Below are positions 18,360 to 31,090 of a DNA stretch of 64,000 nt, piece after piece (positions within the stretch are counted from its first letter, which is position 1; each line of letters begins with the position of its first letter). The stretch is from Cuniculiplasma divulgatum (GTDB taxonomy: Archaea > Thermoplasmatota > Thermoplasmata > Thermoplasmatales > Thermoplasmataceae). A program made the position numbers and the translations under genes. The notes beneath the pieces are model-generated. The model did no database searches and had not been told where the DNA came from. It was given only the letters and a program-made list of their open reading frames with translations. The stretch lies in the NCBI GenBank assembly GCA_031200235.1, contig CP133595.1, forward strand, positions 1,760,877-1,824,876, given 5' to 3'.

Positions 18360-18875
18360 TCAAAGTTGCTTCAATTTCTCCAGAAAATTCTTGAATGAGT
18401 AGGAGTGTAAAGATGCTGTTTTTATATCGAAAAGCTCAAGAATTTGGCTTCTGATTAGAGTACCATCGGAAGGATTTGGAAGTATTGAAATAAATTTCTC
18501 CTTTGTACCGGTGTCGGCTCTTGGAAGCTCCCGGAGCTTAAGCGTTTTTGCTGCTGTCCTGGTAAGTCCAGAAATAGACCATCCTTCTATTTCAGGAACT
18601 GCAAGGAATATGTTTTCATCCGTCAATCTTGTATATCTTCTTTTCAGTTCGGAGATTCTGGAACTTGAAGATGCATAATTCCCTGTATCATCGTCTGCAA
18701 TGAACATGAATTGCTCTCCTTGCGATCTGATGGAGAAAATGTAGCTGTCAACCTTTTCATCCTTCTTTTGAGAGTATTTGAACATCTTTAATTGGGGCCC
18801 TATTTTTTCAAGTTCAATGATCCTGTTTATTAACAATTCATCAAAATATCCCTCTACAAAAATATACTTCGACAT
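18360..18875 (-). CDS. TOPRIM-like protein partnered with an AAA ATPase
   Basis: A 171-residue protein with TOPRIM-type landmarks: an N-terminal strand ending in an acidic residue (YIFVEGYFDELL), a second strand FMFIADDDTG giving the D-x-D pair, and a later EIEGW. TOPRIM domains bind Mg and cut or bind nucleic acid. It starts 6 nt after the stop of the ATPase gene at 18882-20066, so the two are surely co-transcribed. ATPase+TOPRIM pairs occur as split OLD-type nucleases and in defence systems such as PARIS (AriA/AriB) and RloB-like modules. The domain is short, and its assignment rests on motifs rather than a full family match. Confidence 0.65.
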   Translation of the reverse strand: MSKYIFVEGYFDELLINRIIELEKIGPQLKMFKYSQKKDEKVDSYIFSIRSQGEQFMFIADDDTGNYASSSSRISELKRRYTRLTDENIFLAVPEIEGWSISGLTRTAAKTLKLRELPRADTGTKEKFISILPNPSDGTLIRSQILELFDIKTASLHSYSFKNFLEKLKQL

Positions 18876-18881
18876 GTTGAT

Positions 18882-20066
18882 TCAATTGAGAATCCCATCA
18901 ACAAAGAGTTCATCAATACCAATCTTCTCCTTGAGAAAAGCCTTTATTTCATCGTTGTTTGAAGCACGGGAGATCTTTGATGCCCCGTATTGATCTCTAT
19001 CAATTACATACAGATTTTCAAGATCCACATATTTTATCATTTCAGGACTGTGTGTTGTGATAATAATCTGTTTCTTCTGTGAGGCCTCCTTAACAAGGCT
19101 CATTAGGTTTGAAATAAGGCGAGGATGTATGTTCCTTTCCGGTTCCTCAATGACGATGAGTTCCTTTCTCTCAAAAAATAGACTGTAAATTATAGATACT
19201 ATTTCAATGGTCCCATCAGAGATAATGGGTGCAGGGATATATGTCTTCGAATTATAGGTTTCCAGCATCTTGAATATAACAGATTTGTCTACCTGGTTCT
19301 CAATGGATACATCCTTGACAAATGGTAAACAAACTTTCAGGTATTGGATAAATTTCTTCCTTTCATCTGGATGTGCAAGCATTTTTTTCAAAACAAGTGC
19401 AGTGTTACTGCCGTCTGGTTCCAATTCAGCTTTACCTGTAATAGGAATTGCTTTTTTTGATAATTTTGGGTCAAAGTCATATACTTGAATAAGGTGGTCC
19501 ATTCCGAAGCCCAGGAAAAAGCTCAGTGGGGGAATTTGCATAAGGCTACCCATGTCTTTGCTAAAAGATGTAGGAAAGGGCATGATCTGCTTTATTATTT
19601 TCTCTTCTCCTTCGCTACTTATTTTTCCGTTTTGCAAGAAAAATTTTATGGTGCCAGTTTCATTGGTATCACCCTTTGTTCTGGAGGTCCTGAGTGATAC
19701 CTCCTCAATATATTTCTGAATCCCTTTCTTTCTTTTGAATGGATAAAGCTGAAGTTTGTAAGAAAAATCAGAAAGGCGAACGGTTTGTGGTCCATTCAGA
19801 GATATATAATGCTTAATGTCTAGTTGTATTTCTACATCCAGATGTCCCTCTGCTGAATTCCTGTAGTTCAAAAGATATTCCAGACCGCCTTGAAGTGATA
19901 TGGCATTACTTAGTCCGACAGTAGCAATGTCTCTTATAAATTGAAAAATAGATACAAAATTGGATTTACCGGCCGAGTTCTGGCCAATTATAACATTGAG
20001 ATCAGAGAGGTCAATATCTAAAGACTCAAAACTCTTAAAATTAATAGCCCGTACTTTCTTGATCAT
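18882..20066 (-). CDS. OLD/AAA15-like SMC-type ATPase
   Basis: A 394-residue ATPase with the ABC/SMC head architecture. The start KVRAINFKSFESLDIDL is typical of OLD, RecF and AAA15 proteins. Walker A is GQNSAGKSN at about residue 28, Walker B/signature region is LIVIEEPERNIHP at about residue 305, and the switch His is in ITTHSPEM. No TOPRIM domain is fused; it is encoded by the next gene 6 nt downstream. The pair probably forms an ATP-controlled nuclease acting on foreign or damaged nucleic acid. It is isolated from CRISPR or restriction genes, but transposon debris and two HEPN-MNT modules lie within 15 kb. The ATG start is consistent with the conserved N-terminal strand. Confidence 0.75.
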   Translation of the reverse strand: MIKKVRAINFKSFESLDIDLSDLNVIIGQNSAGKSNFVSIFQFIRDIATVGLSNAISLQGGLEYLLNYRNSAEGHLDVEIQLDIKHYISLNGPQTVRLSDFSYKLQLYPFKRKKGIQKYIEEVSLRTSRTKGDTNETGTIKFFLQNGKISSEGEEKIIKQIMPFPTSFSKDMGSLMQIPPLSFFLGFGMDHLIQVYDFDPKLSKKAIPITGKAELEPDGSNTALVLKKMLAHPDERKKFIQYLKVCLPFVKDVSIENQVDKSVIFKMLETYNSKTYIPAPIISDGTIEIVSIIYSLFFERKELIVIEEPERNIHPRLISNLMSLVKEASQKKQIIITTHSPEMIKYVDLENLYVIDRDQYGASKISRASNNDEIKAFLKEKIGIDELFVDGILN

Positions 20067-21864: not shown

Positions 21865-22386
21865 ATAGTATCCCGAATCTTGTGTAAATAAAAGATCAGG
21901 ATCATAATCATGAGAGAAATTTCATGAAAAAGAAAAGGATGCCTCCAGGAACCAACCAGGAGGCAATAAACAATGGAAGAACTGGATAAAAAGATATCTG
22001 AAATAGTCAGAACCACAGTGAAGGGCTTCATGGAATCCCTCATGAAGGGAGAGATTCAGGCCTTCCTTGAGGAAAGAGAAGGCCAGAGGAATGGATACTA
22101 CGAGAGTGACATGGGTACAAGATATGGGAAGATAGATGATCTCAGGGTTCCAAGGGACCGCAGCAATGAATTCCAGACAGCCTTATTCGAACCATATCAG
22201 CGCAACATTGGAATAGACGATCTTGTTGTCTCCATGTATTCAAAGGGAATATCAACAAGGAAGATGGCTGAAATACTGGAGGAACTGTTCCACAATAAAT
22301 ACAGCAAATCCACCATATCAAGGATCACGGAAATAACAGTTCCAGAAGAGGTATCCTTTATAAATACACAACTTTCGGGACACTAT
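21865..22386 (+). mobile_element. internally deleted IS256-type element with both inverted repeats
   Basis: Left end ATAGTATCCCGAATCTTGTG (21865-21884) and the inverted right end ATAGTGTCCCGAAAGTTGTG (22367-22386) match at 17 of 20 positions, defining a 522-bp element. Inside are the first part of a mutator-type transposase and, directly joined, the last bases of one: AGAAGAGGTATCCTT also ends the IS256 remnant at 53166-53297. The middle, with the catalytic core, is missing. I see no clear target duplication. This is a non-autonomous deletion derivative that a full copy elsewhere could mobilise. Confidence 0.75.
21940..21965 (+). promoter_or_regulatory. hairpin covering the transposase ribosome binding site
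   Basis: TGCCTCC (21940-21946) pairs with GGAGGCA (21959-21965). The second arm contains GGAGG, the ribosome binding site 9 nt before ATG 21973. Folded RNA would hide the site and limit transposase translation, a known theme in insertion sequences. Confidence 0.5.
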
Positions 22387-22398
22387 GATTTCTGTTGA
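21973..22398 (+). pseudogene. IS256-family transposase, internal deletion
   Basis: The first 125 or so codons match the N-terminal region of mutator-type (IS256) transposases: MKGEIQAFLEEREGQRNGYY, then RDRSNEFQTALFEPYQR, then IDDLVVSMYSKGISTRKMAEIL. After SKSTISRITE the frame runs out of phase into the 3' end of the element and stops just past the right inverted repeat. All three catalytic acidic residues are lost, so it cannot act as a transposase. The N-terminal domain might still bind the ends. Confidence 0.8.
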
Positions 22399-22462: not shown

Positions 22463-22473
22463 AAACTATTTAT
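22463..22473 (+). promoter_or_regulatory. TATA box of the DUF427 gene
   Basis: AAACTATTTAT is centred about 27 nt before ATG 22496, just outside the right end of the IS256 derivative. Confidence 0.5.
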
Positions 22474-22495: not shown

Positions 22496-22885
22496 ATGGA
22501 ATCAACAGACGGGAATGAAGTTGTTATAGATTACAGGCAGCACAATCATCCCATAAAGGTAGTAAAGGTCGGCAAAACATTAACTGTTAAAGCAAATGGC
22601 CATGATATCCTCAAAACAAGAAATGCATATCTTCTTGATGAACAGGGCCATAAGCCTGTGTATTACTTCCCAATCACTGATATTAACCGGGAATTTCTTA
22701 GGGAAACTTCCACAGAGTCCGTATGTCCATACAAAGGCAGGGCCCATTATTATTCACTTGTGGTTGGCGGTGTAGAACTGAAGGATTCGGTCTGGCGCTA
22801 TTCAGAGCCATCCAAAGACTTCACAGCCATCATGGATTATGTAGCATTCTATGACAATTCCATTGATAGCATAGAGGAATCATGA
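22496..22885 (+). CDS. DUF427 family protein
   Basis: A 129-residue single-domain protein matching DUF427: the opening VVKVGKTLTVKANG, the central ALLD-type strand (NAYLLDEQGHKPVYYFP), and the family core ESVCPYKGRAHYYSL with the following DSVWRYSEPS. The family forms a small beta-barrel; its biochemical role is not settled. The leaderless promoter and ATG fit. The ergothioneine gene egtB starts 100 nt downstream with its own ribosome binding site, so a functional link is possible but unproven. Confidence 0.8.
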   Translation: MESTDGNEVVIDYRQHNHPIKVVKVGKTLTVKANGHDILKTRNAYLLDEQGHKPVYYFPITDINREFLRETSTESVCPYKGRAHYYSLVVGGVELKDSVWRYSEPSKDFTAIMDYVAFYDNSIDSIEES

Positions 22886-22984
22886 TTCAATCAAGACACA
22901 TACGTGGTTTTGCATCGGAAGATTTGGCAAAATGTCCCAGCAGGGGTAAATATGGACAGTATGTTTTACACGTGGGGGTGAAGA

Positions 22985-24262
22985 ATGAAGTCGAATCAAT
23001 TCATTGATAATAGAGAGGAAAAGAAGCTTCTGTTAGCATTTCATGATACCAGATCAAAGACGCTGGAACTCTGCAGGCCACTGAACAGGGATGATTACAT
23101 GGTGCAGGCCACCCCGGAAACGAGTCCTCCAAAATGGCACCTCGGTCACACAACATGGTTCTTTGAGAATTTTATACTGAAACCTTTCCATGGGGATTAC
23201 AGGCCATTTGACGAGAAGTATATGTACCTGTTCAACTCGTATTATGAGACCGTGGGCGAGTTTCTGCCGAAACCCATGAGATCCACAATTTCCCGGCCGG
23301 ATCTCGATGATGTACTGAACTACAGGGCCCATGTTAACGAGGCCATATCAGACCTGATGGGGAATGTAAAGGGCGATGACCTCCAGGAGGTAAAAGCACG
23401 AATGGCTCTTGGAATAAACCACGAACAGCAGCATCAGGAACTGCTCATGATGGATATAAAGATGAACTATTATGTGTCGCCGTACCTGCCTGCATATACT
23501 AAGCCAGCTAAAAAAAGGAAGGATGAGATGCGGGCTTCCGGTTGGCTATCATACGACGAAGCAATTGCAACGGTAGGCTATGAAGGGCATGGATTCTGCT
23601 TTGACAACGAATTACCCAGGCACCGAGAACTGATTCCAAAATTCAGTATGAGCAACAGGCTTGTCACCAATGCAGAATATATGGAATTTATACAGGACAG
23701 AGGATACACACGGCCTGAACTGTGGCTTTCTGATGGCTGGGTTGCGAAGCGCAGAAATAACTGGACTGCCCCGCTTTACTGGGACAACCATGACGGTGAA
23801 TTTTATTACTTCACTCTCTCAGGAAGGAAAAAGGTGGATCCGGATGAACCTGTGGTGCATGTGTCATATTATGAAGCAGATGCATATGCCAGATGGGCAG
23901 GTTTCAGACTGCCAACAGAATCCCAATGGGAATACGCCATGAGGGCTGCGGATCTGAACCATCAGGGAAACACTCTTGATAGCGGGATTTACCACCCTGA
24001 TGTTCAGTCGGTTGGGAAAACGGAGATGGCAGGGCCAGGTGGCGTGTGGGAGTGGACTTCAAGTGCATATTCTCCATATCCAGGATTCAGGCCGCTTCCA
24101 GGGTCAATGGGAGAATATAATGGAAAATTCATGTCGAACCAGATGGTTCTTCGCGGAACAAGCTGCGTTACTCCAGATGGGCATTCCAGGCTTTCTTACC
24201 GCAATTTCTACCATCCGGAGGATCGCTGGCAGTTCGCAGGTTTCAGGTTATGCAGGGACTGA
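22985..24262 (+). CDS. egtB: EgtB-type sulfoxide synthase
   Basis: A 425-residue non-haem iron enzyme expected to join a cysteine thiol (cysteine or gamma-glutamylcysteine) to N-alpha-trimethylhistidine with oxygen. The N-terminal DinB-like domain supplies the iron ligands His55 (KWHLGH), His146 and His150 (HEQQHQE). The C-terminal formylglycine-generating-enzyme domain shows RLPTESQWEYA, WEWTSS and the final YRNFYHP...FAGFRL. ATG 22985 is preceded by GGGGGTGA, a good ribosome binding site. The next gene is an EgtD homologue, which argues for ergothioneine rather than ovothiol, where the methyltransferase is normally fused to the synthase. No egtC-like or lyase gene (egtE) is nearby, so the last steps must be encoded elsewhere or done by another enzyme. 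Sulfur donor cannot be told from sequence. Confidence 0.8.
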   Translation: MKSNQFIDNREEKKLLLAFHDTRSKTLELCRPLNRDDYMVQATPETSPPKWHLGHTTWFFENFILKPFHGDYRPFDEKYMYLFNSYYETVGEFLPKPMRSTISRPDLDDVLNYRAHVNEAISDLMGNVKGDDLQEVKARMALGINHEQQHQELLMMDIKMNYYVSPYLPAYTKPAKKRKDEMRASGWLSYDEAIATVGYEGHGFCFDNELPRHRELIPKFSMSNRLVTNAEYMEFIQDRGYTRPELWLSDGWVAKRRNNWTAPLYWDNHDGEFYYFTLSGRKKVDPDEPVVHVSYYEADAYARWAGFRLPTESQWEYAMRAADLNHQGNTLDSGIYHPDVQSVGKTEMAGPGGVWEWTSSAYSPYPGFRPLPGSMGEYNGKFMSNQMVLRGTSCVTPDGHSRLSYRNFYHPEDRWQFAGFRLCRD

Positions 24263-24295
24263 TGTAAGTTGCATGGAACCAATGAAATAGTGGAT

Positions 24296-25225
24296 ATGAA
24301 GCCAAAACTTTCTGACTTCAGGGAGGAGGTTGTACTGGGTCTCCTTTCCGTACCCAAGAATATCAGTCCGAAGTTCTTTTACGATGATGAAGGGTCCCGG
24401 ATATTCGATGAAATCACGCAGTTGCCTGAATACTACCTAACCAGGGCAGAACTGGAGATACTTGAGACCCGGCGCAATGATATTGGTAGGGCCATAGGGG
24501 AGGACGCCACTGTTGTTGAACTTGGAAGCGGCAACGGTAACAAAGGACTCATGCTCCTGAAGGGGCTTATCAGGCCCAGGGAACTGGTTTTTGTCGACAT
24601 ATCCATCGAGGCGCTCAGGAATGCTGTCAAGCTGGTTCACACTTATTTTCCACATATCGCCGTGAAGGGAATATGCGCAGACTACACTAGCACAGACGTC
24701 ATGGGGCAGATGAATATCCCGGGGAGAAAGGGCATAGTATTTCTTGGATCCACAATAGGCAACATGGAACCTGAGGAAGCAGAACGCTTCATTTCAGGAT
24801 GCAGGAAGCTTCTATTGGCAGGGGAAACTCTCACCATAGGAGTGGACCTTAAGAAGGATAAGGAGACCCTGGAAAGGGCATATAACGACAGTAAGGGGGT
24901 GACTGCAAGGTTCAATCTCAATTTAATTTCACGAATCAACCGGGAGCTGGATGCTGGAATTCCCAGAGACACATTCGTTCACAGGGCCTTTTACAATGAG
25001 AGCAGGGGAAGAATTGAGATGCATCTTCAGAGCACAAAAAAGCAGACATTTTACATTGCAGGCAATAAAATCAACTTTGAGAAGGGTGAAACAATACACA
25101 CAGAAAACTCTTACAAATACTCAATTGACGAGTTCTCAGGAATGCTCAGGGACAGCGGATTTAATCAGATAGAATTCTGGCAGGATTCAGAGCAAAGGTA
25201 TGCTCTCTTCACCGCAACAGTCTGA
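24296..25225 (+). CDS. egtD: histidine N-alpha-methyltransferase EgtD-like
   Basis: A SAM-dependent methyltransferase of about 309 residues that would trimethylate the amino group of histidine, the first step of ergothioneine synthesis. Family marks are SPKFFYDDEGSRIFDEI, LPEYYLTRAE, the SAM loop ELGSGNGNKG (residues 75-84), FLGSTIGN with the substrate-binding Asn, IEMHLQS, and TENSYKYS, whose Glu-x-Ser pair fits the histidine-binding residues known in mycobacterial EgtD. The frame opens at TTG 24269, but ATG 24296 gives the usual length and start. It follows egtB by 33 nt and is probably co-transcribed. Length agrees with the family (about 320). Confidence 0.8.
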   Translation: MKPKLSDFREEVVLGLLSVPKNISPKFFYDDEGSRIFDEITQLPEYYLTRAELEILETRRNDIGRAIGEDATVVELGSGNGNKGLMLLKGLIRPRELVFVDISIEALRNAVKLVHTYFPHIAVKGICADYTSTDVMGQMNIPGRKGIVFLGSTIGNMEPEEAERFISGCRKLLLAGETLTIGVDLKKDKETLERAYNDSKGVTARFNLNLISRINRELDAGIPRDTFVHRAFYNESRGRIEMHLQSTKKQTFYIAGNKINFEKGETIHTENSYKYSIDEFSGMLRDSGFNQIEFWQDSEQRYALFTATV

Positions 25226-25735: not shown

Positions 25736-26161
25736 ATGCCAAATTATCTTGATGAAGAAGAATTCAATCGCTGGCAGGCCCATGCCAGATCAACACTGAG
25801 GTCAGCCTATATTGACAAGTCATCGGGCTTTTATAATTGGGCTTGCTTTAAGGCACAGCAATCTGCAGAATATTCAGTTAAGGCTTTTCTCAGGGGAGTA
25901 GGTTCTGATTCCTTTGGTCACTCTGTTTCAATGCTGCTCAAAAAGGCTGGGTTTGGAGAAAACATAATAAATCTGGCCAAGAAAATTGACAAATACTATA
26001 TACCTACAAGATACACAGATGCCTGGTCAGAAGGTCTTCCAGAGGACTACTACACAGCTGAAGAGGCTGAAGATGCCCTGGGATCTTCTGAAAAAGTTAT
26101 TTCTGAGGTGGATGAGAAGTGGAGATCATTGAAAAACGCAAAAGACAACGGGAACAGTTGA
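25736..26161 (+). CDS. HEPN domain protein (HepT-like toxin candidate)
   Basis: A 141-residue all-helical HEPN protein: WACFKAQQSAEYSVKAFL in the second helix, GHSVSMLLKKAG, then KYYIPTRYTDAW and DYYTAEEAEDAL, the usual end of the PF05168-type domain. In HEPN-MNT modules the HEPN partner is an RNase toxin and the MNT protein silences it by nucleotidylation. The canonical R-x4-6-H catalytic motif is not clear here (Arg and His in RGVGSDSFGH are eight apart), so it may be a subfamily with altered chemistry. Its 3' end overlaps the MNT gene by 43 nt. Confidence 0.75.
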   Translation: MPNYLDEEEFNRWQAHARSTLRSAYIDKSSGFYNWACFKAQQSAEYSVKAFLRGVGSDSFGHSVSMLLKKAGFGENIINLAKKIDKYYIPTRYTDAWSEGLPEDYYTAEEAEDALGSSEKVISEVDEKWRSLKNAKDNGNS

Positions 26162-26457
26162 TTGGCCAGGTTTCAGAATTCATCAAGGGATTGAATTTCA
26201 AATGTACTGCCCTGTTAATAGGTTCCTATGCAAGGGGAGACTTTAATCTGTGGAGCGATGTGGACATCTTGATTATCGGTGAATTCAGTGGATCTCCTCT
26301 GGAAAGATTGAAGAATCTTAATCTTCCGCCAGGGTACGAGGCTATTCTGTTGACCCCTGATGAAGTGGCTAAAAAGAGGAAAATGAATGATCGGTTTATT
26401 AGTGAATCATTTGAAAACGGTGTTATTCTAAGGGACGATCTACATTTAATGTCCTGA
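26119..26457 (+). CDS. MNT nucleotidyltransferase (antitoxin candidate)
   Basis: A 112-residue minimal nucleotidyltransferase with the motif GSYARGDFNLWSDVDILI: the GS pair followed by the D-x-D metal ligands. In this two-gene family the MNT protein modifies and neutralises the HEPN toxin. The frame starts at GTG 26119 inside the HEPN gene; a TTG at 26158 that overlaps the HEPN stop (TTGA) is the alternative. Translational coupling is likely either way. It ends with a helix-rich tail. A frameshifted second copy of the same gene pair lies at 31875-32509. Confidence 0.8.
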   Translation: MEIIEKRKRQREQLIGQVSEFIKGLNFKCTALLIGSYARGDFNLWSDVDILIIGEFSGSPLERLKNLNLPPGYEAILLTPDEVAKKRKMNDRFISESFENGVILRDDLHLMS

Positions 26458-27093: not shown

Positions 27094-27594
27094 TTACTCA
27101 ATCGTTCCGGAGCCCATGCCGTTTATTGTAAGCATTCCCTTGACGACACAGGCTTTTGACAAAGTGTTTGTGACATAGCAGTCTGAGGCAGCTGAAGAAG
27201 CCAGTCTAATCAGTTTTTCGGTATTTTCAGGAGACCTTAAGTCGACATGGTATATGATCTCGGAGAAGTACCTTGGTCTGCTTACACTAAATTTGCCCTC
27301 AACTGTTATGCTGAGATCATCTATTTCGATCCCCTGTGAAGCAGCATGTTCAGCATAATGTATCATCTGGCACATTCCCAGGCTTGAAACAAAGTATGCC
27401 AGTGGGCTGGGGCCAGATTCATCGGAAACCCAAGAAAGATCCAGTCCATCCTGACCTGCTTTTGAAGATAGATTGTCTCCCTTTCTTACTGTGACGCTGA
27501 TTTTGGATGACACGTTACCTCTCTCATCGAATTTTGAGAATCTTGCCATCCTCTCCTGCATTCTGGCTCTGAAATCATTGTCGAAATTAACCAT
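27094..27594 (-). CDS. OsmC/Ohr family protein
   Basis: A 166-residue OsmC-like protein. The conserved Cys-bearing helix is DESGPSPLAYFVSSLGMCQM, and the second Cys pair is in ASDCYVTNTLSKACVV. Family members reduce organic hydroperoxides through a two-cysteine site or act on related sulfur chemistry. The frame is open upstream to TTG 27699, but the extra 35 residues do not look like the family, and ATG 27594 gives the usual length. The neighbouring disulfide reductase gene at 29738 and the ergothioneine genes would fit an oxidative-stress theme; this is inference. The 456 bases from 27595 to 28050 show no gene I can support. Confidence 0.75.
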   Translation of the reverse strand: MVNFDNDFRARMQERMARFSKFDERGNVSSKISVTVRKGDNLSSKAGQDGLDLSWVSDESGPSPLAYFVSSLGMCQMIHYAEHAASQGIEIDDLSITVEGKFSVSRPRYFSEIIYHVDLRSPENTEKLIRLASSAASDCYVTNTLSKACVVKGMLTINGMGSGTIE

Positions 27595-28050
27595 ATCGCC
27601 AAATACCTGTTGCTTTCTTAAGGTCTTTCCGTCAACCGTTGTAGGTAAATTCGGGGTATTTTGCAGTTCATTAGTCAGCAACCGATACAATGAGATCAAG
27701 AGGAAAGTCTGTGAAGAACCCGGCAGTTAACCGATCAATCACATGAAAATGATTCAGATGTAACACGGCCGGTGAGCTAAATTTGTACAGACAACACCCG
27801 CTCTCGCTATGTTTTTTGCAAAATGGGCATCGGGAAGAACAGAAAAATTGATATTGTACTTAAAGAAATTCTGCCACAGATTTTAACCAAAATTGAGCGG
27901 GAAATCCCCTTTCGAAAGATATGGGAGGAGGTCACGGATCGGTAGTAGAAATGTTGATACTATATGCACCAAAATTCATCCCAAGCGATGATTTCCGGTA
28001 CAGATACGGAGACAGATACGTACCGTGGAACATTCCGGCTACAGGAAAGA

Positions 28051-28737
28051 TCAAATTGTAACAATCTTCCCTAGAGCCGTGATTTCCACTTCAGTTCTTC
28101 CTCTCGTCCCTTTGTTAACAGTAACAAGACCAAGGTCAACAAGCCCCTCTGAATCTTCAGTACCGTTCATGTGCCTGCTGATCAGGGATTTCTCAAGGCC
28201 AGTAATTTCTGAAAGTTGCTCCAGACTTTCAACCTTTCCCTTTTTCCTTACCAGGGCACCAAGGATGGAAAGTTTAGTTTCTGATAAAATCCTCTGGTAT
28301 CCTAGTTTTAGAATAGGTAACATGTGAATACCCTTGGCGTCTATCCAGAAAGCCCTTATGCCGAAAATGAAAGCTGATGATATGGCTGTGCAGGACATGA
28401 GTTTTCCGCCCTCTGTCACATTCATTAGAAATTCGTCGTAGTCTTTGCAGTGATCTCTATATACTGATTTTACAGCTTCAAGTACCTCATTCAGATCACC
28501 GGATTTTACCTTTACTTCTTCCACCTGCGTCATCAGTGCATTCGCTATCTGTTTCACAAAATCATTGAATGGCATTTCAGACTGTCTTGCAATTCTGTCA
28601 TGGACCTCCTCATGGATTATTACAATCTTATCCATAGGTAAAAGTCTTATTCCATCCCTAATGCCTTTATACGACTGACCATCAGTGAAGATGGCAATCT
28701 GCAGTGTCTTTTTCGGTTCAGGTTGTTTCTCACCCAT
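28051..28737 (-). CDS. CARF-like domain + winged-helix regulator
   Basis: A protein of about 228 residues in two parts. The N-terminal Rossmann-like domain (IAIFTDG..., DKIVIIHEEVHDR, then MNVTEGGKLMSCTAISSAF) resembles the CARF-type ligand domain of Csa3 and of the archaeal DUF6293 regulators. The C-terminal part is a winged helix: LSILGALVRKKGKVESLEQLSEITGLEKSLISRHM, with a wing ending in LVTVNKGTRGRTEVEIT. It probably controls transcription in response to a nucleotide-like ligand. No cas gene or CRISPR array is visible in the window, so its target is unknown. The frame opens at 28812; ATG 28737 (MGEKQPEP) is a likelier start because the first 25 residues are not family-like. Confidence 0.65.
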   Translation of the reverse strand: MGEKQPEPKKTLQIAIFTDGQSYKGIRDGIRLLPMDKIVIIHEEVHDRIARQSEMPFNDFVKQIANALMTQVEEVKVKSGDLNEVLEAVKSVYRDHCKDYDEFLMNVTEGGKLMSCTAISSAFIFGIRAFWIDAKGIHMLPILKLGYQRILSETKLSILGALVRKKGKVESLEQLSEITGLEKSLISRHMNGTEDSEGLVDLGLVTVNKGTRGRTEVEITALGKIVTI

Positions 28738-29110
28738 TGTTCTTATGATACATTCCGTGTTATTAGACATACTGGATGAATTCATTGCCCATCTACAAAT
28801 GTTTCCTGTCAAGGGTTGACTGCCGAAGCGAATACAATCACAACACCTGACAACTTACCGTTTGGTGGAACAGATAAATCATTCTCATCATCAAGCTATA
28901 AAGGTGCTAGAGGAAGAGGGCAAACTAAAGGAAAATAATATTGCTCCAGGATCAAGAAGTAGTTGATCAATGGCTCCAGATCAATAATATCTGCAAAATA
29001 TGCTTGGGGTTACTTCAAGAGGCACATCCAATTTTTTCAGGGGTGGCATTCATGCAACCGTTGACAGAACTCGCTTTTATACCACAGCTAAATAGAGACA
29101 TTCGATAAAC

Positions 29111-29692: not shown

Positions 29693-29737
29693 CCCCACAA
29701 CTTAAATAATTTGACCAACTGTGAAATGGAGGAAAAA

Positions 29738-31090
29738 ATGAAATCAATGTTTGATTTAGTTATCATCGGTTCTGGTTCGGCTGCAACTACTGTGGCATTC
29801 CGTGCCTTGAAGGAGGGAAAGAAGGTGGCCGTAATCGACCAGAAACCCATTGGAGGAACCTGTGCACTGCGAGGATGCGATCCGAAGAAGATCCTGGTTG
29901 GAGTCACTGAATCACTGGAATCTGCCAGGAGGCTTCAGGGACATGGCATATCAAATCTAAGTGGAGCATTAGACTGGGGTGAACTCATGGAGTTCAAGCG
30001 CTCCTTTACCGAACCAATGTCCAAACGAATAGAGGATAGCATTATCAATGGCGGCATTCAAGTACTGCACGGAAAGGCCAGATTCCTAGGACCAAACCTG
30101 CTCGATGTTCAGGGAGAAACACTTGAGTCAGAAAAACTTCTCATTGCATCGGGTGTGAAGGCAGCAGCTCTGAATTTCCCAGGTTCAGAGTATCTCATAG
30201 ACAATGAGGGGTTTCTCAGCCTTGCAAACCTTCCTAAAAATATTGTATTTATTGGTGGAGGGTACATATCTGTGGAATTTGCCAGCATCGCTAGAAAAGC
30301 AGGGTCTCAGGTTACCATAATACAGCATCCCGAGAGACTGCTTGTTAATTTTGATCGTGAGGTCGCAGGAATACTCACGGATCTCCTCAGGGAATCCGGC
30401 ATAAAAATAATTACAGGTACATCTGTAAAGGAAGTCAAGAAGTCCGGCGGCGGATATCAAATATATCTTACGAGAAACGGTAAGGAAGATTCAATCCTCA
30501 CTGACCTGGTCGTTCACGGTGCAGGGAGGGAGTTCGATTCGGATATGGGCCTGGAGGCCGGCCAGGTGAAATGGTCTAAAAAGGGTGTTGCTGTAAATGA
30601 CTTTCTACAGAGTGTATCAAATCCAAGAGTCTATGCTGCAGGCGATTCTGCTGACACTGCGGGACCAAAATTAACGCCAATTGCAGTCATGGAGGGTAGC
30701 ATAGCAGCCGAAAACCTGCTGCACGGAAATTCTGTCAAGGCCGAATATATCGGGATTCCAACCACCGTATTCTCATCGCCGCCAATGGCAATGGTGGGAA
30801 TGACTGAAGATGAGGCTGCAAGGAAGAATATAAACATCACAGTGAAAAAGGGAGAGATGACTTCATGGTACAACTCGGCAAGAAGAATGATACCAAAATC
30901 TTTCTATAAGGTTATACTGGACAGTGAATCAAAAAGGATTTTGGGGGCCCATATTCTTGGTGAAAACTCCGAGGAGGTCATAAATATCTTTTCGCTGGCC
31001 ATTAGGCTCAACATTGATGTGAAAACTCTGATGTCAACACCATTCACCTACCCATCAGACACATATGATATCAAATACATGATAGGATAA
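29738..31090 (+). CDS. FAD-dependent pyridine nucleotide disulfide reductase
   Basis: A 450-residue flavoprotein of the glutathione/mercuric reductase family. It has the N-terminal FAD loop VIIGSGSAA, the redox-active CALRGC pair in GGTCALRGCDPKK, the NAD(P) loop FIGGGYISVEFA, and the second FAD motif VYAAGDSA. The C-terminal dimer domain is present, but where the family has the catalytic H-P-x-x-x-E, this protein reads TYPSDTYDIKY, so the general-base His is Tyr. That is seen in some divergent mercuric-reductase-like proteins and argues against glutathione reductase. Substrate unknown. ATG 29738 is chosen because GGAGG lies six bases ahead; ATG 29726 is also in frame. A role in thiol or ergothioneine redox is only a guess. 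Confidence 0.8.
   Translation: MKSMFDLVIIGSGSAATTVAFRALKEGKKVAVIDQKPIGGTCALRGCDPKKILVGVTESLESARRLQGHGISNLSGALDWGELMEFKRSFTEPMSKRIEDSIINGGIQVLHGKARFLGPNLLDVQGETLESEKLLIASGVKAAALNFPGSEYLIDNEGFLSLANLPKNIVFIGGGYISVEFASIARKAGSQVTIIQHPERLLVNFDREVAGILTDLLRESGIKIITGTSVKEVKKSGGGYQIYLTRNGKEDSILTDLVVHGAGREFDSDMGLEAGQVKWSKKGVAVNDFLQSVSNPRVYAAGDSADTAGPKLTPIAVMEGSIAAENLLHGNSVKAEYIGIPTTVFSSPPMAMVGMTEDEAARKNINITVKKGEMTSWYNSARRMIPKSFYKVILDSESKRILGAHILGENSEEVINIFSLAIRLNIDVKTLMSTPFTYPSDTYDIKYMIG

Follow-up and report, generated by a model that had tools for sequence, protein, structure and literature searches.

What is a gene of the DUF427 family doing at the head of a pair of ergothioneine genes in an acidophilic archaeon? 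The question arises from a 64,000-nucleotide stretch of the Cuniculiplasma divulgatum genome (hereafter, the window; contig CP133595.1), in which DUF427, egtB and egtD follow one another on the same strand. Ergothioneine is a widely studied antioxidant, and its bacterial pathway is usually drawn as complete; the DUF427 family, found in bacteria, fungi and a few archaea, has had a crystal structure since 2008 but no role. We consider it probable that the three genes form an ergothioneine operon in which DUF427 serves as a dedicated ergothioneine accessory (Table 1).

Table 1 Features of the window, in window coordinates.
Feature	Position	Strand	Evidence or remark
AAA_21 ATPase	18360–20066	−	Resembles the defence proteins HEC-01A and AriA
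Decayed IS256-family transposase remnant, outside the cassette	21973–22398	+	NF033543 positions 14–121 of 338
TATA-like box CTATTTAT, possible cassette promoter	22466–22473	+	DUF427 start codon follows after about 22 nt
DUF427 protein (PF04248), 129 aa, beta-tent fold	22496–22885	+	Pfam, AlphaFold2, PDB 3djm
egtB, type II hercynine sulfoxide synthase (predicted), 425 aa, 3-His iron site	22985–24262	+	TIGR03440, PDB matches
egtD, L-histidine N-alpha-methyltransferase	24269–25225 (TTG 24269; alternative ATG 24296)	+	TIGR03438, PDB 4uy6/4pim
HEPN and nucleotidyltransferase pair	25736–26457	+	PF05168, PF01909
OsmC-like protein	27094–27699	−	PF02566, 65.7 bits
HFX_2341/Csa3-CARF-like N-terminal domain, possible regulator	28051–28812	−	
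FAD disulfide oxidoreductase (MerA/glutathione-reductase-like), possible thiol-disulfide reductase	29711–31090	+	Profile matches

By profile and alignment, EgtB and EgtD are genuine. In NCBIfam profile searches, EgtB scored 542.5 bits against TIGR03440 (curated equivalog cut-off, 360) and EgtD 352.8 bits against TIGR03438 (cut-off, 290.9); EgtB carries the Pfam DinB and FGE-sulfatase domains, EgtD matches Pfam Methyltransf_33 (333.6 bits), and their genes are spaced 6 nt apart. The iron-ligand histidines H55, H146 and H150 of EgtB align with H51, H134 and H138 of the mycobacterial enzyme and show no variation across 27 sequences from the window's order and 6 bacterial sequences, and the motifs LPEYY, STIGN and TEnS are retained in EgtD. 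The initial annotation, which had described adjacent egtB and egtD genes with conserved ligands and binding residues, is borne out on this point.

The closest solved relatives of the window EgtB are Chloracidobacterium enzymes (PDB 6qki, 6o6l and 8qf6; 426 bits, versus 136 for mycobacterial 4x8b), which assigns it by homology to type II, with predicted use of cysteine. Enzymes of this type are reported to take cysteine instead of gamma-glutamylcysteine (PMC11993508), and both EgtB activities have been described (PMC9103826). Because EgtB belongs by homology to the cysteine-using type, neither EgtA nor EgtC is expected. The initial annotation had listed EgtC and the final lyase as missing nearby: no EgtC was seen near the cassette, as expected for a type II EgtB, and for the lyase the gap extends to the whole genome, in which a search of the class-V pyridoxal-phosphate (PLP) enzymes recognised no EgtE (the best TIGR04343 match, SufS, reached 90 bits versus a cut-off of 400). 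The genome's PF00266 matches include SufS, two class V aminotransferases, a decarboxylase, glycine-dehydrogenase-type proteins and an aspartate-aminotransferase-like protein, none of them EgtE, and two further strong matches fall in the Cys/Met-metabolism PLP family PF01053. Across the order, no conserved lyase gene lies beside egtBD, and one SufS gene adjoins locus L051. SufS or another PF00266 or PF01053 enzyme of the genome could serve in the C–S lyase step.

In the pathway that we propose, EgtD would trimethylate histidine to hercynine, EgtB would use iron and O2 to combine cysteine with hercynine into hercynylcysteine sulfoxide (with EgtA and EgtC unneeded), and a general PLP enzyme, either SufS or one of the two Cys/Met-metabolism-type enzymes, would supply the missing C–S cleavage. 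According to published work, EgtE acting on the sulfoxide sets free a labile sulfenic acid (PMC9103826). DUF427 would most likely act on an oxidised form, binding or reducing either this lyase-released sulfenic acid or the disulfide by means of a nearly invariant cysteine.

That Thermoplasmatales carry ergothioneine genes has been reported before: egt genes were noted in a few members in 2020 (PMC7554672), and the EgtB and L-histidine N-methyltransferase of Oxyplasma meridianum (OXIME_001566–001567) were described in 2024 (PMC11349054). EgtB occurs in 29 of the 117 genomes of the window's order, all of one family and spanning at least 10 genera, and every one of the 29 also has an EgtD match. 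When 27 archaeal (Thermoplasmatales) type II EgtBs were placed in a tree with 42 bacterial ones, a supported branch (SH-aLRT, 96) separated the two sets, and because the archaeal sequences make up a single supported clade, the acquisition is taken to be old. No archaea appeared among the listed matches of a scan of a wider EgtB collection, and the tree includes archaeal EgtBs from this order only; the sister group of the archaeal clade, which would point to a bacterial donor, was not resolved (support, 62). The window EgtB is more similar to copies from two other genera (89% identity in G071 and 81% in G055) than to that of a same-genus genome (67%, G105), a possible sign of exchange between members of the family, although the 89% copy, at locus L034, comes from a binned genome, on a contig of 8 kb, and could be contamination. 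These sequence patterns fit a single ancient acquisition, after which the genes were kept unevenly or exchanged. GC content, considered as a sign of foreign origin, was 0.41 to 0.48 in the cassette versus 0.417 in the window, which was uninformative on this point. The lateral transfer suggested by the initial annotation therefore stands as one bacterial-type ancestry backed by the tree, but as an old event in genes already reported for Thermoplasmatales; the accompanying idea of thiol-based defence in acid may be entertained as a possibility.

What is new is the link between DUF427 and the ergothioneine genes. The two are associated beyond chance in independent groups of genomes (all counts ignore shared ancestry). 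In a Bacteroidota order (299 genomes; DUF427 matches of 90 bits or more), EgtD was present in 46 of the 46 DUF427 genomes versus 20 of the 253 others (Fisher P about 1e-38, kinship ignored), and the two genes lay within 8 kb of each other in 26 of the 46, with under one such pair expected by chance. Most of these close pairs (19 of the 26) had the order DUF427–(egtB)–egtD with an egtB-sized gap, as in the window; four others had a longer gap, which, where read, held a betaine-type ABC transporter, and among the other arrangements DUF427 once followed egtD on the same strand and once faced it. The transporter between DUF427 and egtB is an EgtU-like fusion of permease and binding domains, twice accompanied by a flavoprotein reductase; such a fusion has been described for EgtU (PMC9732360). 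For the Acidobacteriota, DUF427 was found in 47 of the 69 EgtB genomes versus 13 of the 228 others (odds ratio 35, kinship ignored), most of the genes being distant from egtB; 7 of those 13 have an EgtB-like match below the cut-off (240 bits or more) and six have no comparable match. GFA, a fold-related control family, was not enriched in the same Acidobacteriota genomes (5 of the 69 with EgtB versus 33 of the 228 others). Within the window's order, DUF427 was matched in 19 of the 29 EgtB genomes versus 4 of the 88 others (odds ratio 40, kinship ignored), lying immediately 5′ of egtB in five of them; the 10 EgtB genomes with no DUF427 match include several incomplete ones. Among the matches listed, which held 80 bacterial EgtB loci, DUF427 adjoined egtB or egtD in four loci from four phyla, and the complete DUF427–egtB–egtD series is found on plasmid pAQ7 of Picosynechococcus sp. 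PCC 7002 (SYNPCC7002_RS15985–RS15975). DUF427 is thus statistically associated with the egt genes, and not the mere neighbour that the initial annotation had made of it. Our literature search, which reached few subscription journals and preprints, found no paper pairing DUF427 with ergothioneine, and an earlier report is possible.

The window DUF427 gene ends 99 nt upstream of egtB, and its product is a clear family member (PF04248, 107.8 bits versus a gathering cut-off of 22.1). Ahead of DUF427, the window and three related loci (L033, L034 and L035) share the TATA-like sequence CTATTTAT or TATTTAT, a resemblance that fits one transcript running from DUF427 onward; scans for sigma-70 promoters and terminators, which are ill-suited to archaea, returned chance-level results. 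Nine residues are nearly invariant in 86 DUF427 sequences (Y57, P59, C77, K80, G81, Y85, W100, Y102 and F118), among them the motif C77-x-x-K80-G81 (CxxKG). The AlphaFold2 model (pLDDT, 89.9) matches PDB 3djm (TM, 0.9) and, weakly, yippee domains, and DUF427 has been placed in the beta-tent fold together with MsrB (PMC4287342). Reduction or shielding of a sulfenic acid or disulfide by way of the cysteine would fit the fold, the motif and the neighbouring genes; we infer such chemistry from one conserved cysteine and a fold resemblance, and DUF427 might equally well act as a binding protein or carrier.

Several other readings were weighed. It is scarcely credible that the EgtB homologue yields some other product, of the ovothiol, selenoneine or formylglycine type: its SenA score is sizeable and an FGE-sulfatase domain is present, but it falls below the SenA (355 versus 420 bits) and OvoA (117 versus 400 bits) cut-offs while far exceeding that for EgtB, the adjoining histidine methyltransferase is itself over its cut-off, and the nearest structures are EgtBs. 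The initial annotation had named a formylglycine-type or ovothiol enzyme as what would overturn its EgtB assignment, and that assignment withstands the comparison. Recent import of the operon by an IS256 element, for which one could cite the remnant directly upstream and the closer EgtBs of other genera, is also very improbable. The remnant encodes 141 aa and scores 104 bits with NF033543, below the full-length transposase threshold of 150; it is truncated and lies on one side of the cassette only, ending about 110 nt 5′ of DUF427. In the closest relative (L034, with the reservation that it may be a contaminant), homology begins at position 22387, just past the IS-derived sequence, and the cassette is present with the IS absent; the Thermoplasmatales EgtBs moreover form one supported group of 27. 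We therefore rejected the proposal that the remnant marks the transfer. Some 60 kb downstream, the genome holds another piece of this IS256-like element (L063, 17630–18028).

For DUF427 itself, one alternative is that it is the missing C–S lyase, or a lyase partner replacing EgtE, as its tight linkage to egtBD and the failure to recognise EgtE in the genome might suggest. We hold this to be very unlikely, given that DUF427 has no PLP-binding domain, that a DUF427-containing Bacteroidota operon (L210) includes, next to egtD, a class-V PLP enzyme resembling EgtE (TIGR04343, 149 bits), that a class-V PLP enzyme also adjoins DUF427 at L221, and that about a third of the order's EgtB genomes (10 of 29) gave no DUF427 match; with EgtE-like enzymes standing beside it, DUF427 was judged an unlikely EgtE substitute. 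The main rival is a wider thiol-redox role, because DUF427 is also found where egt genes are not, as in a plasmid family of Klebsiella, Acinetobacter and Pseudomonas, of which the one locus read lies beside glutaredoxin. DUF427 would then be a general aerobic or redox-stress protein, linked to egt genes by shared lifestyle and chance neighbours, and its other neighbours, which include glutaredoxin, MsrA-like (L226 and L232) and metal-transporter-like (L228–L230) genes, lend this some substance. It is nevertheless unlikely in view of the complete co-occurrence and close pairing in the Bacteroidota order, a gene order shared by archaea, Bacteroidota and cyanobacteria, and the lack of enrichment of GFA; lifestyle is hard to hold as the cause because adjacency recurs in several arrangements across phyla. 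On the plasmid locus that was read (L268, Klebsiella conjugative plasmid NZ_CP072951), DUF427 lies by glutaredoxin, ferredoxin reductase and sulfite-oxidase-like genes, and many plasmids of Klebsiella, Acinetobacter and Pseudomonas carry the same DUF427 match.

Around the cassette, the OsmC-like gene has an orthologue directly before DUF427–egtB–egtD in a same-genus locus (L035), and the FAD disulfide oxidoreductase has stayed close by in both L033 and L035; OsmC and the oxidoreductase remain close to the cassette in two relatives, and a related flavoprotein is found inside the Bacteroidota egt operons L210 and L213. In L033 and L035, the possible regulator of Table 1 likewise keeps its place close to the cassette. 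Directly 3′ of egtD is a HEPN and nucleotidyltransferase pair, a typical toxin–antitoxin arrangement, and the L034 cassette is followed by a pair that looks alike. On the other side of the cassette, the AAA_21 ATPase is followed by a 171-aa protein with no family match, possibly as a defence pair.

Together, these results single out DUF427 as a strong candidate for a part of the ergothioneine pathway that has been overlooked. That the family is an unrecognised component of ergothioneine systems in general, for example by reducing or carrying the sulfenic acid or disulfide of ergothioneine, is a more tentative proposition, to which we give somewhat less than even weight. If true, a family that tracks ergothioneine across domains and inside operons would represent an overlooked step in, or user of, this molecule, and DUF427 would gain a function long after its structure.

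Among known systems, Oxyplasma meridianum, of the same order, has the same two egt genes, and DUF427 is not mentioned in the portion of its description available to us (PMC11349054). The egtB–egtD pairs of Chloracidobacterium thermophilum and Methylobacterium share the EgtB type, with cysteine use expected and EgtC unneeded; unlike them, the window cassette has an archaeal host, DUF427 as its first gene and no recognisable EgtE. The Rhodobacter sphaeroides DUF427 protein of PDB 3djm, to which no function is assigned, shares the fold of the window protein and has a CPxKG motif. The pAQ7 cassette is identical to that of the window in gene order and strand, and differs in being carried on a cyanobacterial plasmid and in its DUF427 protein of 164 aa.
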